10,391 bases of DNA, from positions 1-10,391 of the forward strand of contig JAJRTK010000242.1 in assembly GCA_024278345.1 (NCBI GenBank). Direction: 5' to 3'. Source of the DNA: a bacterium. GTDB taxonomy: Bacteria; CSSED10-310; JAJRTK01. Both the position numbers and the translations under genes were made by a program. The notes under the pieces are model-generated. The model was given only the letters and a program-made list of their open reading frames with translations, had not been told where the DNA came from and did no database searches. Below are positions 596 to 9,605 of this stretch, piece by piece. The stretch's first letter is position 1; each line of letters opens with the position of its first letter.

Positions 596-1678
596 CTAGA
601 TTCCGCACTGCGCAAAGTGCCGAAGAGCGTGATCCGCCAAAACCAACGCCATGGCCGCTTCTACCACGGGAACCGCCCGGGGAACGACACAGGGGTCGTG
701 ACGCCCGCGAAGCAGCAGTTCAACCTCTTTTCCTTCATCATCGATGGTTTGCTGCGGCAAGAAGATGCTTGCCACCGGCTTGAAGGCGACCCTCACGAGG
801 ATTGGCTCGCCGTTGGAGATTCCACCTTGGATTCCCCCCGAATAGTTGGTCCGTGTGCAAACCCGGCCCTGCTTCATGAAGAAGGGGTCGTTGTGCTCGC
901 TTCCCCGCATCCTGGTTCCTCGAAATCCGCTACCCACCTCAAATCCTTTCGCCGCGGGGATCGACAAGAGAGCGTGGCCCAAGTCCGCTTCGAGCTTGTC
1001 GAATACGGGATCCCCCCAACCGGGCGGCACACCTCTGGCGACGGCCGCCACGACGCCGCCAAGAGAATCCTTCTCCTTGCGCACTCCGGTAATGAGGGCT
1101 TCCATTTCCCGAGCCGCTTCAAGATCGGGGCAACGAACGGGAGTCCTGTCCACGGCAGGGCGATCAACGCTCTGGGAAACGACCCTGGACCCCACATTTC
1201 CGACGCTTTCCACCCAGGCAACAATCTCGACTCCCCAGCGATCCAGAAGAAACTGTTCCGCGAGTGCTCCCGCGGCAACCCGCGCGGCCGTTTCCCTGGC
1301 GCTTGCCCGCCCGCCACCTCGAGGGTCGCGAATTCCATATTTCGCGGCGTACGTATAATCAGCGTGGCTAGGCCGATAGACGTGCGTCAATTCCCGGTAG
1401 GCAGAGGAATCGGCATTTTTGTTCTCCAGCACAAGCGCGATAGGAGTGCCTAGAGTGCGTCCCCGGTAGACTCCCGAAAGAATTCGAAGGCGATCCGGCT
1501 CTCGGCGAGGGCTTGTCAACGAACTCTGGCCCGGTCGGCGACGCAGGAGCTGCTCTTGTATCCCGGCTTCGTTGATCCGAAGTCCTGGCGGGAAGCCTTC
1601 AACGACAACCCCAACGGCTGCGCCATGGCTTTCGCCGAACGTCGTCACTCGAAACAGGGTGCCCCAAATACTTCCCAT
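596..1678 (-). CDS. aroC: Chorismate synthase
   Basis: Chorismate synthase converts 5-enolpyruvylshikimate-3-phosphate to chorismate, the last step of the shikimate pathway, using reduced FMN in the cytoplasm. The 360-residue product has the normal family length and signatures: the N-terminal GESHG at residues 15-19, RRRPGQSS near 47-53, the RPSHADYTY segment at 102-110 with its conserved histidine, GGGRASARET at 121-130, the GGISNGEPI segment in the last third, and the C-terminal stretch RHDPCVVPRAVPVVEAAMA. The ATG at 1676-1678 is preceded by AAGGAAAG at five-base spacing, a good ribosome binding site. The stop is TAG at 596-598. A small ORF follows 14 bases after it and then a terminator. 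The gene is divergent from the ATP-grasp gene, with 71 bases between the two starts. No clear -10/-35 pair was found there. All catalytic regions look intact. Confidence 0.97.
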   Translation of the reverse strand: MGSIWGTLFRVTTFGESHGAAVGVVVEGFPPGLRINEAGIQEQLLRRRPGQSSLTSPRREPDRLRILSGVYRGRTLGTPIALVLENKNADSSAYRELTHVYRPSHADYTYAAKYGIRDPRGGGRASARETAARVAAGALAEQFLLDRWGVEIVAWVESVGNVGSRVVSQSVDRPAVDRTPVRCPDLEAAREMEALITGVRKEKDSLGGVVAAVARGVPPGWGDPVFDKLEADLGHALLSIPAAKGFEVGSGFRGTRMRGSEHNDPFFMKQGRVCTRTNYSGGIQGGISNGEPILVRVAFKPVASIFLPQQTIDDEGKEVELLLRGRHDPCVVPRAVPVVEAAMALVLADHALRHFAQCGI

Positions 1679-1749: not shown

Positions 1750-2982
1750 TTGTTTTCCCAAGCAAACCATCACCAGAAGCCGGGTCCAGTGACCCAAGAC
1801 CACGGCGCTCCTCGGAAGACGTTCGGCATCCTTGTCCATCTCGCCCCAAACCCCAGAGACGAGCGTACACCGAGACAAACTCCTCTGGGCCGCACCGCCC
1901 TCGCCCTCCGAAGCCGGGGCTTCGAGCTCCTTTTCGTCGATCCGGCCGGGCTGGAACTCCGCCAAAGAGAAGTTTGGGGATTCGGACTGGCCAGCGACCA
2001 ACTTGGAGAAACGTGGATACCTTCTCACAGACAGCTCTCCGCGGTCTACAACCGCTACCCAGCCACGGGACGTCCAGCTCCTTTCGCCAGAGCATCGGCT
2101 CTGCTCCAGAAAAGCCACATCCCCTGGGGAAACGGCATCGCCGTGACAAAGCTCTGCACCGATAAGCTCCAGGCGGAGATCTTGTTGAAAAAGGCCGGAG
2201 TGCCGACCCCGGAGACCTTGACCGACCCTGAAAGAGCGCTTGAAGCTCTGAGCCAATGGCGGGCGCTCTATGCCAAGCCTGGTTTTGGCTCTTTAGGCCG
2301 GGGAATCTACTATGTGTGGCTCGATGGGAACAAGATCCTGGTCGAACCGCACCCGAATGCCGACAGCGACGGGGAGGAAACCGCCTGCCTCTCCAGAAAC
2401 CAGGCGGCAATCTGGTTTTCAGAATTGGCGCAGGGCGAGGCAACCTTGTTCCAAATGGCGATTCCGCCGCCGGTCCCGGGACTCCGGGGATGCTCTATCC
2501 GCTCTCTTGTCCAGCGTTCCCCCGACGGCAAATGGCAAACAACGGGCCGTGTGGTACGGGTGTCCAAAACCGACCCCATTGCCAACGTCGCACGAGGCAG
2601 CAAAGTCTGGAGCCTTGAGAAGCTTGCCCACCAGCGGAAGCTTGCCGGAAATTCACAACACTCCACACAGCTTGGCAAGCGTCTACACTTCCTGGACAGG
2701 CTCATTGCCACGGTCCTGGAAAGGGCCGAGCATTCAAACAACGATCAAACGCTGGAGATTGGCATCGACTATGCTTGTCATCCCGTATTGGGACCCGTGC
2801 TCCTGGAAGTCAACGGCAGGCCCCTGGGTCGATTTTCCACACTTGCCAACCTTGATCCGCAAGGAAGAAGACTCCACCTCCAAGCGCTGCTGCACCCATT
2901 CCTCCTTCTCGACCAGCTCTCGCCACCCTCGCTTTTGACTGGGAGGCAAGCCCTGGGTTTTCTAGATGGGCTGCCGGCATAA
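1750..2982 (+). CDS. YheC/YheD-like ATP-grasp protein
   Basis: A 410-residue protein with an ATP-grasp fold, most like the YheC/YheD family known from Bacillus spore-coat contexts. ATP-grasp enzymes join a carboxylate to an amine or thiol through an acyl-phosphate. The substrate here is unknown. In order: an N-terminal TFGILVHLAP strand (24-33), an NRYP motif (101-104) resembling the NRxP of the family, TDK (137-139) and the lysine/glycine loop YAKPGFGSLGRG (174-185) for ATP, QMAIPPP around 235-241, SIRSLVQ with R251, GRVVRVSK (266-273), and the metal-binding end EIGIDYA...LLEVNGRP with D340, E353 and N355. No signal peptide or membrane segment is evident. The start is uncertain: TTG at 1750 gives the longest frame but has no good ribosome binding site. 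GTG at 1789 would shorten it by 13 residues and keep the whole core. A weak terminator follows 30 bases after the stop. It could also be another peptide-ligase-type ATP-grasp. Confidence 0.85.
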   Translation: MFSQANHHQKPGPVTQDHGAPRKTFGILVHLAPNPRDERTPRQTPLGRTALALRSRGFELLFVDPAGLELRQREVWGFGLASDQLGETWIPSHRQLSAVYNRYPATGRPAPFARASALLQKSHIPWGNGIAVTKLCTDKLQAEILLKKAGVPTPETLTDPERALEALSQWRALYAKPGFGSLGRGIYYVWLDGNKILVEPHPNADSDGEETACLSRNQAAIWFSELAQGEATLFQMAIPPPVPGLRGCSIRSLVQRSPDGKWQTTGRVVRVSKTDPIANVARGSKVWSLEKLAHQRKLAGNSQHSTQLGKRLHFLDRLIATVLERAEHSNNDQTLEIGIDYACHPVLGPVLLEVNGRPLGRFSTLANLDPQGRRLHLQALLHPFLLLDQLSPPSLLTGRQALGFLDGLPA

Positions 2983-3294: not shown

Positions 3295-3405
3295 GGGTAT
3301 CCACGCAAGGCGGGACATTCCCAGGACTGTGGAATCGCAAGCGTCCGGGGGGTATCCACGTAAAGTGGGACACTTCATGGATTGTGGTAATGCCAATCGT
3401 CCGGG
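3295..3405 (+). repeat. Two tandem units of a roughly 55-base repeat
   Basis: Unit 1 starts at 3296 and unit 2 at 3351. Both open with the identical ggtatccacg, share a middle of the form (C/T)AA(G/A)G(C/T)GGGACA, then a (A/G)(C/T)TGTGG-like block, and both end in cgtccggg. Identity is high at both ends and moderate in the middle, with one single-base indel. Within each unit tCCACgcaaggcGGGa or tCCACgtaaaGTGGGa can fold into a small hairpin. Neither unit encodes a plausible protein. Iterated motifs of this kind occur at the ends of some insertion sequences (IS21-like elements carry multiple terminal repeats), but no transposase remains here, so the origin is unknown. Confidence 0.7.
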
Positions 3406-5716: not shown

Positions 5717-5816
5717 CAAAGAGGCTGGAGCCCGTGGATCTCATCACGGATCGTAAGTGGGCAGTCGGGGGTGTTTTCAGTCCGCCACAATTCCACATGG
5801 GAGTCCACGAACAATC

Positions 5817-6563
5817 ATGCCTTCGCTCTTCACCTACAGCATATTCGATGCCGAAACCTGGGCGGAAGCCATGGACTCGCTAACTCGTGCCATCCACCGG
5901 GCGGCTGGCGGTCGAAATCAGCCTTGCCCGTGCGGCAGCGGAAAAAAATACAAAAAGTGCCATGGGGGAGCCGACGCCGAACTGCCTCTGGAACAATGGC
6001 TCGACACCGGCGGTGAACTTCGGCTGGGGAATGCTGTGGGTATCGACCGGGAGCTGGCGCAGCAGGCGAATCACGTTGCACGGTTACAGAGGGCGGCTCG
6101 ACTCTTCGGTGGCGCCCGAGATCTGGACGTGCTGGGTCCGAGACCACTTGCCAGCGATCTTGCGGCTGCCGCCGCGGTCCTTCGCGAAGAAACCGGTGGG
6201 GACGAGGAGCTCCAAGAAATCTTGAGCCGCCTCCTTGACATGGCTCCAGACTACCAGTTGGATTACCAGAGGATTGTTTTCGATCTGGTTGAGATCTGCC
6301 AAACTTCCGGCAACCTGGAGCCGGCTATTCGGGCGCAAAAATGGTGGATCGAGTTCCTGGAGGATTTCGGTGAGTTCTTCTTCCTTCGGGTCGAAGCGAT
6401 CAACAAGCTCTACGATCTCCTGCTGAAAGCGGGAGAGATCGTAGACTCAGCCGATTCGAAGAAGGCCCTGCGACAGCGATTCGCCACCTCGAAGGCCCGT
6501 GATCGCTCCTGGGTCATGGACAAGCTCAAGCGCGGCGAACCGCCACCCGATTCGAGCTCCTGA
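5817..6563 (+). CDS. SEC-C motif protein with a helical C-terminal domain
   Basis: A 248-residue protein whose clear feature is a SEC-C zinc motif near the N terminus, [17 protein letters not shown] (residues 35-51), with ligands C37, C39, C48 and H49. This motif binds zinc and is best known from the C-terminal tail of SecA, where it contacts SecB and ribosomes. It also occurs in many unrelated proteins. The remaining 200 residues are charged and probably helical (for example [14 protein letters not shown] and [19 protein letters not shown]), with no catalytic motif I recognise and no membrane segment. The start is uncertain: ATG at 5817 is used, GTG at 5757 would add 20 residues, and ATG at 5871 would leave only 18 residues before the motif. 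None has a strong ribosome binding site. It is 78 bases ahead of the S51-like gene on the same strand, so co-transcription is likely but not certain. Confidence 0.75.
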
Positions 6564-6641: not shown

Positions 6642-8054
6642 ATGCACTCGTCCCGCCATCTTTCTGATTTGGACTCTCCCCCACCGCTGCCTCCACCGCC
6701 CAAGCTGTTTGACCACAAAGTGCGGGGTTGGATCTGCCTCAACGGGAACGTGGCGTGGGAAAGCGACCTCGTGGAGATGTTCAAATTTCGGATCCTCGAG
6801 CCTCAGCATTTCGACGAGGAGGTGGGGAAAAAGCGAAAAGTCCTCCTGGTGACAGCCGCGTTCAACCGCGGCCACGAGCACCGTGATCGGCACATCATCA
6901 GCCTTTTTGAAAAAATCGGAATCGACGCCGACTGGGATGGCCGGCACCCTCACAACATCCAGAACCTGTCGATCTACACGATGTTCGAGGAATTCCAACG
7001 CCACGAGCCCTGGATCTACCGTCGTTACACGGAAAAACAAGACATCATCAAGGCCATCACGCGGGACTATGGCCGGAAAAATCAACGCTACGTGGAGACC
7101 GTGCGCCGCCTTTTGGGGGTTCTGGAAGGGCGCTATTCTTCTCTAAGACTCTACGATTTCTACCACGCCACGCACCCGGGCAGGGGCCTTCATGCCCTTG
7201 TCAACGACGAAGAAACGAACCGGCATCCCGGCTCCGAAAACCGCATCGAAGCCTTGAAGCAGCTCTCCCGCTCCAAACCCGATCTTGCCCGTTGCTCCAG
7301 GCTTTACCGGATCGTGGAACACCTGGTCTACAAGGATGAAGAAGTCTTTGCCATGTGCCGCGGCGTCGAGGATCACTTTCTGGACCGAAGTGGCGTCCGG
7401 CAAAGCGGCCTCTATCGCGCACAAAAGAATGAGCTCCGTGACCGCGTTCTCTCCAGCGCTTCGGTTTTCCTCTTCGGCGGCCGCGTTTTTGTCCTTGTGA
7501 ACCGGCTTCGGTTTTACGGCCTCGGGGACGTCTTCTCCGAGGCCCTCGACCGAGGCACGAACCTCTATGGCATCAGTGCCGGCGCCATCTGTATGACCCA
7601 ACGCTGGTCGCTGACCTTCGATCACCATGGAACGAGTCACCTTCATGCCGCGGATCACGGAATGGGCCTGGTCAAGGGAATCCGGATCTTCCCTCACGCC
7701 GATGATTTCCGGTCGATCCGCGAGGGACGGCGAGACGACCTCTCTTTCTTTGCCCTCCGCATGCCCGACGAAGTCCCCGTGGGCCTCAACGAAAAGAGCG
7801 TCGTTCTCTGCGAAACCTACCGCGATCCTCTCGACAAAAAGATCTACCAACGCCTCACATCCGTGGGCTCCGATCCTGTCCTGGTCTTTGGCCCCCGAGG
7901 CGAACGGCACGAAATGGCACGCATGTCCCAAATCCTCGTCGAAAGATGCAAGTTCTACCAGGGACGCCATCAACTGGCGACCCAGTCAGAAATCCTGGAG
8001 CTAGAGCGGCTGCAACGCCAAACGATCAACTCCTCCAATGACCTAGAGCCCTGA
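6642..8054 (+). CDS. Divergent peptidase S51-like protein (cyanophycinase/dipeptidase E fold)
   Basis: A 470-residue protein whose C-terminal part matches the S51 serine-peptidase family (dipeptidase E, cyanophycinase): SASVFLFGGRVFVLVNRLRFYGL (272-294) like the family's GG strand-turn, GISAGA (310-315) with S312 at the nucleophile elbow, and GMGLVKGIRIFPHADDFRSIREGRR (340-364) with H352, 40 residues after the serine as in known members, then VGLNEKSVVLCE (380-391). An N-terminal strand, VLLVTAAFNRG (67-77), also fits. Between it and the GG strand lie about 195 residues, far more than the roughly 60-70 usual there, rich in charged helices: an inserted domain. Residues 1-25 are polar with a poly-proline stretch, and there is no signal peptide. 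The ATG at 6642 has a modest TAGGG upstream. The next gene starts 15 bases after the stop, so the two form an operon. The substrate is unknown. Cyanophycin or an isoaspartyl peptide is only a family-based possibility. Confidence 0.75.
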   Translation: MHSSRHLSDLDSPPPLPPPPKLFDHKVRGWICLNGNVAWESDLVEMFKFRILEPQHFDEEVGKKRKVLLVTAAFNRGHEHRDRHIISLFEKIGIDADWDGRHPHNIQNLSIYTMFEEFQRHEPWIYRRYTEKQDIIKAITRDYGRKNQRYVETVRRLLGVLEGRYSSLRLYDFYHATHPGRGLHALVNDEETNRHPGSENRIEALKQLSRSKPDLARCSRLYRIVEHLVYKDEEVFAMCRGVEDHFLDRSGVRQSGLYRAQKNELRDRVLSSASVFLFGGRVFVLVNRLRFYGLGDVFSEALDRGTNLYGISAGAICMTQRWSLTFDHHGTSHLHAADHGMGLVKGIRIFPHADDFRSIREGRRDDLSFFALRMPDEVPVGLNEKSVVLCETYRDPLDKKIYQRLTSVGSDPVLVFGPRGERHEMARMSQILVERCKFYQGRHQLATQSEILELERLQRQTINSSNDLEP

Positions 8055-8069
8055 TAGAAGGAGAAACGA

Positions 8070-9605
8070 TTGTTTTTCTACGGGTTGATTTCCGCTCGCG
8101 TCGCTCGCATCCGCTGCGCGCCACTCGCCTCTCGCCACCACGAAGCATTGCCCCAAAAGCGTGTCACCTCCCGAATCTTGTCCGCCTTGGTCACAGCACT
8201 CTTCATTGGATGCGCGGCAGTCACTTTCCAAGCCCCTGGCCCCGCGACGGCGCCGCCTGTTCCAGGGCATCCGACGAACCTCTTGCTCGCACTGGATGGC
8301 ATCAGCTACCAGCAGTTCCTTCAGGCCCGGCAGCGTGGCATGCTTCGAGGATTCCGGCCGCCAGTCCCCTTGATATCAACATTCCCCAGCCTGACTTCCA
8401 CCGCCTTCTCCTCCATGGTTCAACCGGTGGGCTATCCCCCGTCGCCCGGTTACGAAAACCGCCACTATGACTGGGGGCGAAACAAGGTGGGGGGGGGAAT
8501 CCCCTATCTGCACTTCCCGTGGCATGACTACTTCGAGATCGATCCCAATACTTTATCCCACAAGACCCTTGGGTATTGTTGGCCCAGGCGGCTTGCCCGG
8601 GCTGATTTTCGCGAAGTGGAGCGGCAAGCACTGGAGCTGGATCGCGGTTTTATTACGGCTTACCTGTCCAACACCGACGCCTTCGCTCACCTCCACGGGA
8701 AGAGTGGAGCTTTGGAAGTTTTGAGGCTTCTTGGCGAAATGGTTCCCAAACTGAAAGCGGCGTACCAACACCGCTACAAGCGGCCTCTTTACGTGACGGT
8801 CCTCACGGATCACGGGCAGTCAGTGGTGAAACAACGGCCTGTGACCGGCCTCAAGCGCCATCTGCGGTTGGGGGGCTTCGTTCCGGGATCGTCCATCAAA
8901 AACGATAGGAGCGTGGTGGTCGTGCCATTCGGTTACGTGAGTGCCGGCATGCTTTTTTTGCGGCACCGGTTTCAAAGAAAGCTGAGTCGATGGCTTGTAA
9001 GACTCGACGGAATCGACCTTTGCACCTACCGGCGCGACGACGGTGTCATCGTCATCATCGGCAGAAACCACCGCGAAGCCCTGATCGAGGCACGCGGAAC
9101 AGCCGACGGCCTCGAGCTCCGCTACAACGATCTCCAGGGCGATCCACTGGAATATGGCGAGATCCGCGAACGCCTCCGCAAACGGGGATGCCTGGGTCCG
9201 GACGGATTCGCGGAGGCCCGGGAGTGGCTGGAGGAAAGCGCTTTCGCCTCCTATCCGGATGCTCTGTTCCGCCTTTACGATGCCTTCCACAACAAGGCGA
9301 TTGAGAATACGGCCACGGTCATCTTCTCCACGGCCACCGGCCGAGCCTACGGACACCCCATCACGCGGGCCCTCTCCTGGCTCAGAGCGGGCAAGCTCGA
9401 CTCGACCCATGGCGGCCTGGACAGTGACGGCAGTCTTGGGGCCGTCATCACCGACAATCCCGTCATGCCGCTTCCCATGGCATTTCGTTTCGATGAGATC
9501 CTTCCCTTCGCGGAACGCTACGGCAAGCCTCCTGACGCGAAAAACTGGCCCGCGGCTCCACCAGAGACTGAAAACTATTTGGCAACCGGAGCCTCAGCTC
9601 AATAA
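8070..9605 (+). CDS. Exported alkaline-phosphatase-superfamily phosphodiesterase
   Basis: A 511-residue member of the type I phosphodiesterase/nucleotide pyrophosphatase branch of the alkaline phosphatase superfamily, two-metal enzymes that cleave phosphoesters. The metal and nucleophile sites are all visible: LLLALDG (D76), STFPSLTSTAF (nucleophile probably T109), YLSNTDAFAHLHG (D203, H207), VLTDHGQ (D247, H248) and DSTHGG (H447). The segment RVTSRILSALVTALFIGC (31-48) looks like a signal peptide with a non-ideal lipobox at C48, implying export and possibly lipid anchoring. The TTG start at 8070 is supported by AAGGAG six to seven bases upstream, but it leaves an unusual 30-residue basic lead before the signal. 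TTG at 8178 is an alternative. Fifteen bases separate it from the S51-like gene. A G9 run at 8489-8497 (residues 140-143) is a possible slippage site. The substrate is unknown. Confidence 0.85.
   Translation: MFFYGLISARVARIRCAPLASRHHEALPQKRVTSRILSALVTALFIGCAAVTFQAPGPATAPPVPGHPTNLLLALDGISYQQFLQARQRGMLRGFRPPVPLISTFPSLTSTAFSSMVQPVGYPPSPGYENRHYDWGRNKVGGGIPYLHFPWHDYFEIDPNTLSHKTLGYCWPRRLARADFREVERQALELDRGFITAYLSNTDAFAHLHGKSGALEVLRLLGEMVPKLKAAYQHRYKRPLYVTVLTDHGQSVVKQRPVTGLKRHLRLGGFVPGSSIKNDRSVVVVPFGYVSAGMLFLRHRFQRKLSRWLVRLDGIDLCTYRRDDGVIVIIGRNHREALIEARGTADGLELRYNDLQGDPLEYGEIRERLRKRGCLGPDGFAEAREWLEESAFASYPDALFRLYDAFHNKAIENTATVIFSTATGRAYGHPITRALSWLRAGKLDSTHGGLDSDGSLGAVITDNPVMPLPMAFRFDEILPFAERYGKPPDAKNWPAAPPETENYLATGASAQ

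Follow-up and report, generated by a model that had tools for sequence, protein, structure and literature searches.

The gene at positions 6642 to 8054 of the window, by which we mean the whole stretch of 10,391 nucleotides that was analysed, codes for a protein of the peptidase S51 family into which a long, predicted all-helical insert has been built. Judged by its sequence the protein is a peptidase S51 homologue, and in this it is of a known kind; what was found here to be new to the curated models, PDB sequences and open literature searched is the insert, together with an operon in which some of the relatives are encoded. The conclusion that the insert marks an S51 subfamily undescribed in the databases and open literature searched, as the preliminary description of this DNA had surmised, is supported because neither a separate model in Pfam or NCBIfam nor an insert-bearing structure among the PDB sequences was found, nor a known S51 subfamily already carrying this domain, and because no description of the insert or of the operon was found in the open literature searched. 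The best reading is that of an active S51 amidase or isopeptidase with a helical hairpin that would serve as a lid or a docking element; we infer the activity, the substrate and the role as a lid from the evidence below. The parts of the gene, all on the forward strand, are as follows.

6642..8054, forward strand: whole gene, S51 peptidase with helical insert, 470 amino acids (open reading frame and Pfam PF03575, E 5.5e-11)
6723..6749, forward strand: first core strand, GWICLNGN region, residues 28-36 (strand at 28-33 in the model; NGN conserved in relatives)
6837..6860, forward strand: second core strand, KVLLVTAA, residues 66-73 (alignment with relatives and model)
6954..6971, forward strand: third core strand, NIQNLS, residues 105-110, the strongly conserved entry to the insert (invariant N108 and L109; strand at 106-110 in the model)
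6972..7451, forward strand: predicted all-helical insert, residues 111-270 (models; helices at about 123-164 and 212-249 in a long antiparallel hairpin, plus short helices)
7461..7481, forward strand: GG strand, residues 274-280 (model and alignment)
7575..7577, forward strand: S312, the nucleophile in GISAGA (hhalign and core alignment)
7695..7697, forward strand: H352, the catalytic histidine (hhalign and core alignment)
7791..7793, forward strand: E384, the probable third catalytic residue, GLNEKS lying on the S51 motif GIxExT (hhalign and core alignment)

All the S51 features open to testing were found in this protein, namely, a Pfam score above the cut-off, the nucleophile elbow and histidine, the third residue, and the predicted fold. 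The profile search that had been proposed for peptidase S51 matched PF03575 (Peptidase_S51) with 43 bits, above the curated cut-off of 23.9; the alignment covers only residues 259-389, from profile position 70 of 206 onward, because the insert interrupts it. A genome-wide search found no other S51 match in the source genome. In hhalign the insert family matched 11 ordinary S51 proteins at 97.6%. The full-length AlphaFold model was built with four sequences and has a low mean pLDDT of 61; despite this the S51 fold is clear in it. When the model was compared with known structures, the first 11 matches were all S51 enzymes (Z 8.4-14.2), cyanophycinase and dipeptidase E, the two structures proposed earlier for comparison, being among them, and the first unrelated match had a Z of only 4.8. 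The top match was 7uqv_C (Z 14.2, 216 residues, 3.2 Å). Thus the S51 fold assigned in the preliminary description holds, and so do the positions it gave for S312, H352 and GG 279-280. Its start at 6840 corresponds to residue V67, where a core strand does open, but the gene itself starts at 6642; a proline-rich leader and the first core strand (GWICLNGN, residues about 29-36) lie upstream, and VLLVTAA (67-73), which had been called the first strand, is the second.

The GxSAG elbow with S312 and the PH352 motif are in register with the 11 ordinary S51 proteins in hhalign, so the two residues do fall on the S51 dyad, the catalytic loops being of low confidence in the model. In sequence register, E384 aligns with the conserved Glu of GIxExT. 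In the literature the S51 triad is Ser-His-Glu or Ser-His-Asp (PMC9239234, PMC11078827); at the position of E384, L009, L050 and most Sericytochromatia members have Gln. In the AlphaFold model the third strand (106-110) is followed by helices only, up to residue 270, and then by the GG strand (274-279). The helical part is the better modelled (blocks of about 65-94) and the S51 core the worse; since pLDDT is below 50 at residues 312-362, the model speaks for the fold and not for the arrangement of the catalytic site or for the face that carries the insert.

From the end of the second strand to the GG strand there are 204-205 residues in the window protein versus 42-51 (mean 48.6) in a sample of eight ordinary S51 proteins that were drawn from other genomes, while the spacing from GG to Ser is 33-34 in both. 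The excess is therefore about 155 residues. An insertion of over one hundred residues had been claimed; it is real but larger than that. The wide gap before the GG strand likewise stands, the figure of about 195 becoming 204-205 when counted from the second strand, whereas the 60-70 residues given as usual for the family do not agree with the eight ordinary proteins. Since the frame is open, the G+C content by codon position is 64/39/71%, and relatives at 45-49% identity share the insert, it is not an assembly artefact. The full-length model and a model of the insert alone (mean pLDDT 81.7) agree that the inserted part is helical, as had been suggested, and the latter gives a long hairpin of antiparallel helices, with short helices besides. 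Searches for a known fold with the insert alone returned as best PDB matches unrelated coiled coils and hairpins with Z no higher than 7.0, which is under the chance level for helical bundles and is no proof of a new fold. Matches to prefoldin and protein-origami structures were put down to coiled-coil chance, and the Pfam match to WRW (E 0.014) was under the cut-off.

A long two-helix hairpin that resembles only generic coiled coils and has few invariant residues (P123, Y143 and D232 are conserved in at least 80% of 34 members) would also suit an insert that serves mainly for oligomerisation or as a scaffold and leaves the active site unshaped, in what would in other respects be an ordinary aspartyl dipeptidase or cyanophycinase. 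We regard this as unlikely. The N-L pair at the third strand, Y143 and D232 are kept in all the insert-bearing groups among the 34 aligned members, which suggests specific contacts, whatever the partner, and the protein scores far under the equivalog cut-offs of the NCBIfam models for PepE (NF003642, 20.3 bits versus 156) and cyanophycinase (TIGR02069, 11.9 bits versus 126.6).

The search for homologues that share the insert, which had been put forward as a check, found them in several distant bacterial groups. Full-length relatives at 45-49% identity come from two more genomes in the window's phylum, one labelled Schekmanbacteria, and others at 33-35% identity from Sericytochromatia. A profile made from the insert only matched 7 of the 18 Sericytochromatia genomes and no genome among the roughly 320 other Cyanobacteriota sampled; among 386 relatives it added three small lineages (G588/G452, G675/G544 and G465/G602) and G594. 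In the phylum of G594, which has large genomes, 57 of the 187 genomes sampled have a family member. Three forms occur there: L050 resembles the window protein, group 2 stands alone and is about 375 residues long, and group 3, at about 325-345 residues, has a shorter insert with an excess of about 93. The insert is longest in the window branch. In a tree on core columns, from which the insert was omitted, a branch with support of 96/96 separated the 34 insert-bearing proteins from 11 ordinary S51 proteins, in a small ordinary sample, with long branches flagged and a family gathered with insert-containing profiles. The insert is heritable, and because of this separation a single origin fits best, one gain being the simplest reading. 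A mobile or viral origin was considered and dropped, as there was no match in phages or plasmids and none confirmed in viral contigs; nor did PADLOC give a match to a defence system.

The genes around these relatives fall into two kinds. In 15 operon-type loci, comprising group 3, G465/G602 and the fused proteins, a PF00756 enterochelin-esterase-like hydrolase adjoins or is fused to the S51 gene in 14, and an ATP-grasp gene is near it in 11. The stop and start of the esterase and S51 genes overlap by 1-16 bases in the loci checked. Fusion of the two occurs in four genomes from two small lineages; each protein, of about 800-855 residues, consists of an S51 part with the insert, lacking Ser and His, and an enterochelin-esterase-like domain.

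L030, 8428-10932: fusion protein
L031, 8405-10969: fusion protein
L032, 6862-9255: fusion protein
L033, 7503-9908: fusion protein

Several group 3 loci also have a second small esterase. In two of the group 3 loci GCS2 and CBS domains are combined in one protein (L087:8871-10832, assigned by Pfam; L083:25-2010, by similarity noticed on reading the translation). An operon in the large-genome phylum (L087:1752-10832, L083:25-6269, L084 and L086) brings together ATP-grasp ligases, the S51 gene, a Fes-like esterase, a second small esterase and the ligase-like GCS2-CBS protein, and it looks like an undescribed amide-forming pathway. Group 2 genomes also have an operon-type copy. In 22 other loci (window branch, Sericytochromatia and group 2), several of which end at contig edges, phmmer found no match to the operon esterase; an open reading frame at L039:6517-7359 resembles another esterase by eye. 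In one Sericytochromatia locus an ATP-grasp-like open reading frame (L037:7359-8234), sub-threshold in Pfam but with similarity to a DcsG-like protein in L087, overlaps an S51 gene with intact Ser and His. In two other Sericytochromatia genomes (L039:7619-8902 and L040:9374-10672) the S51 gene is directly preceded and overlapped by a gene for a protein of some 430 residues that Pfam does not match.

The overlapping genes and the fusions raise the question whether the insert docks partner enzymes, the ATP-grasp and the esterase, the window branch having kept it after loss of the operon or having acquired the gene alone. This is very improbable, we think, as the window, group 2 and most Sericytochromatia loci keep the insert without such neighbours, and it is in the window branch that it is longest.

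The two kinds of loci also differ in the catalytic residues. The grouping was made after inspection and its loci are related to one another, so the Fisher values calculated for it serve as description only. Ser and His are both intact in all 20 stand-alone members (4/4 in the window clade, 5/5 in Sericytochromatia and 11/11 in group 2), whereas Ser or an in-register His is absent in 9 of 14 aligned operon-type members. The four fused proteins have lost both, with IGTGAE, VGSGAE or VGAGAE at the elbow and Q, P, K or E in place of His; Ser is missing in L035 and L067, both are missing in L064, His is missing in L068, and in L034 it is shifted by one. It follows that the fold can serve without catalysis, and the subfamily may then consist of binding proteins or pseudoenzymes that recognise a peptide-like product, with hydrolysis secondary or absent. 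Although the four fused proteins and the other five just named retain the insert, we consider this rather improbable, because Ser and His would hardly have been retained in every stand-alone member, the window protein included, if they were not in use.

In the window itself phmmer found no match to the operon esterase or to the operon ATP-grasps, and the same was true of its three closest relatives, L007, L009 and L069; no conserved neighbourhood was found among these four. Nor do the genomes of the window branch encode anything close to the operon esterase: their best matches, where there is one at all, have E values of 3e-19 to 2e-25, versus 1e-150 in operon genomes. The neighbours are the following.

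596-1678, reverse strand: chorismate synthase (AroC), above the NCBIfam cut-off
1750-2979, forward strand: ATP-grasp gene, YheC/D type (PF14398, E 4.7e-23)
5757-6563, forward strand: SEC-C motif protein just upstream of the S51 gene
8070-9605, forward strand: protein with sub-threshold similarity to type I phosphodiesterase, 15 bases downstream of the S51 gene

A link between the S51 gene and the ATP-grasp gene at 1750-2979 was rejected: by phmmer it is non-homologous to the operon ATP-grasps, it is 3.7 kb away with four genes between, and it is not near the S51 gene in L007, L009 or L069. The two nearest neighbours (5757-6563 and 8070-9605) are not kept beside the S51 gene in the relatives seen. 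A 38-base unit occurs twice in the intergenic stretch 3295-3387, as direct copies that match imperfectly (79%) and lie 55 bases from each other.

On balance, an active S51-fold serine hydrolase of a distinct insert-bearing subfamily is probable, its insert capping the active-site face or docking a partner, and its substrate a ligase-made amide. By homology, Ser312 as nucleophile, with His352 and probably Glu384, would cleave an amide beside an acidic residue. In the S51 fold the loops after the core strands sit on the nucleophile-elbow side. Since the insert begins where a core strand ends, at the sheet edge of the nucleophile elbow, capping of the active-site face is its most likely role. The roughly 155 extra residues between the third strand and the GG strand, most likely gained once, would thus cap or extend this face and select for an amide substrate that is larger or branched, or else dock a partner. 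The ATP-grasp ligases and esterases beside the relatives' gene suggest, by analogy with CphA and CphB, that the enzyme acts on an amide or isopeptide made by a ligase, in the way that CphB acts on cyanophycin. The window branch would be a stand-alone version that has neither the ATP-grasp nor the esterase of the operon, and by its kinship it too would have a ligase product as its substrate.

CphA, an ATP-grasp ligase, and CphB, an S51 hydrolase, are encoded together in 81% of the genomes that have both (PMC10206079), and the insert-family operons are alike in placing an ATP-grasp ligase beside an S51 hydrolase; they differ in that their ATP-grasps are of other types, that Fes-like esterases are present and that two loci add the GCS2-CBS protein, and the window has no CphA. 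CphB (3en0, 7uqw) and pseudo-CphB (7uqv) share with the window protein the fold (Z 13-14), the GG strand and the register of Ser and His, and several insert-family members are weakly similar to TIGR02069, but these proteins have 260-266 residues, lack the helical insert and are only 15-20% identical to the window protein. PepE (1fy2, 6a4r, 7c9b) has the same fold (Z 12-13) and a Ser-His-Glu triad (PMC9239234); its solved chains are of 220-240 residues and lack the insert, and the window protein falls under its model's cut-off. The MccG-type peptidases, which belong to clade V of the six in the published S51 tree (PMC9239234), are similar in their peptide-conjugate chemistry and mostly stand-alone genes; by description they are set apart by an Asp in the triad, and the paper mentions no insertion.

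A wider proposal, which we put forward tentatively and think unlikely as a whole, is that the insert-bearing S51 proteins act as hydrolase or reader in a system for amide conjugation that is as yet undescribed, made up of the ATP-grasp ligases, the GCS2-like ligase and the Fes-like esterases; active copies would remove the conjugate, copies lacking Ser and His would bind it, and the window branch would be a deconjugase of this kind that is free-living.

Few roles are known for the small S51 family; they concern dipeptides, cyanophycin and microcin C. A branch of it in which an extra domain is conserved, and which is recurrently linked to amide ligases and esterases, points to peptide or polymer metabolism beyond the curated models, and the insert family displays repeated loss of catalytic residues in its operon-borne copies. 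Together, the insert family and the operon make up a gene set that can be tested.
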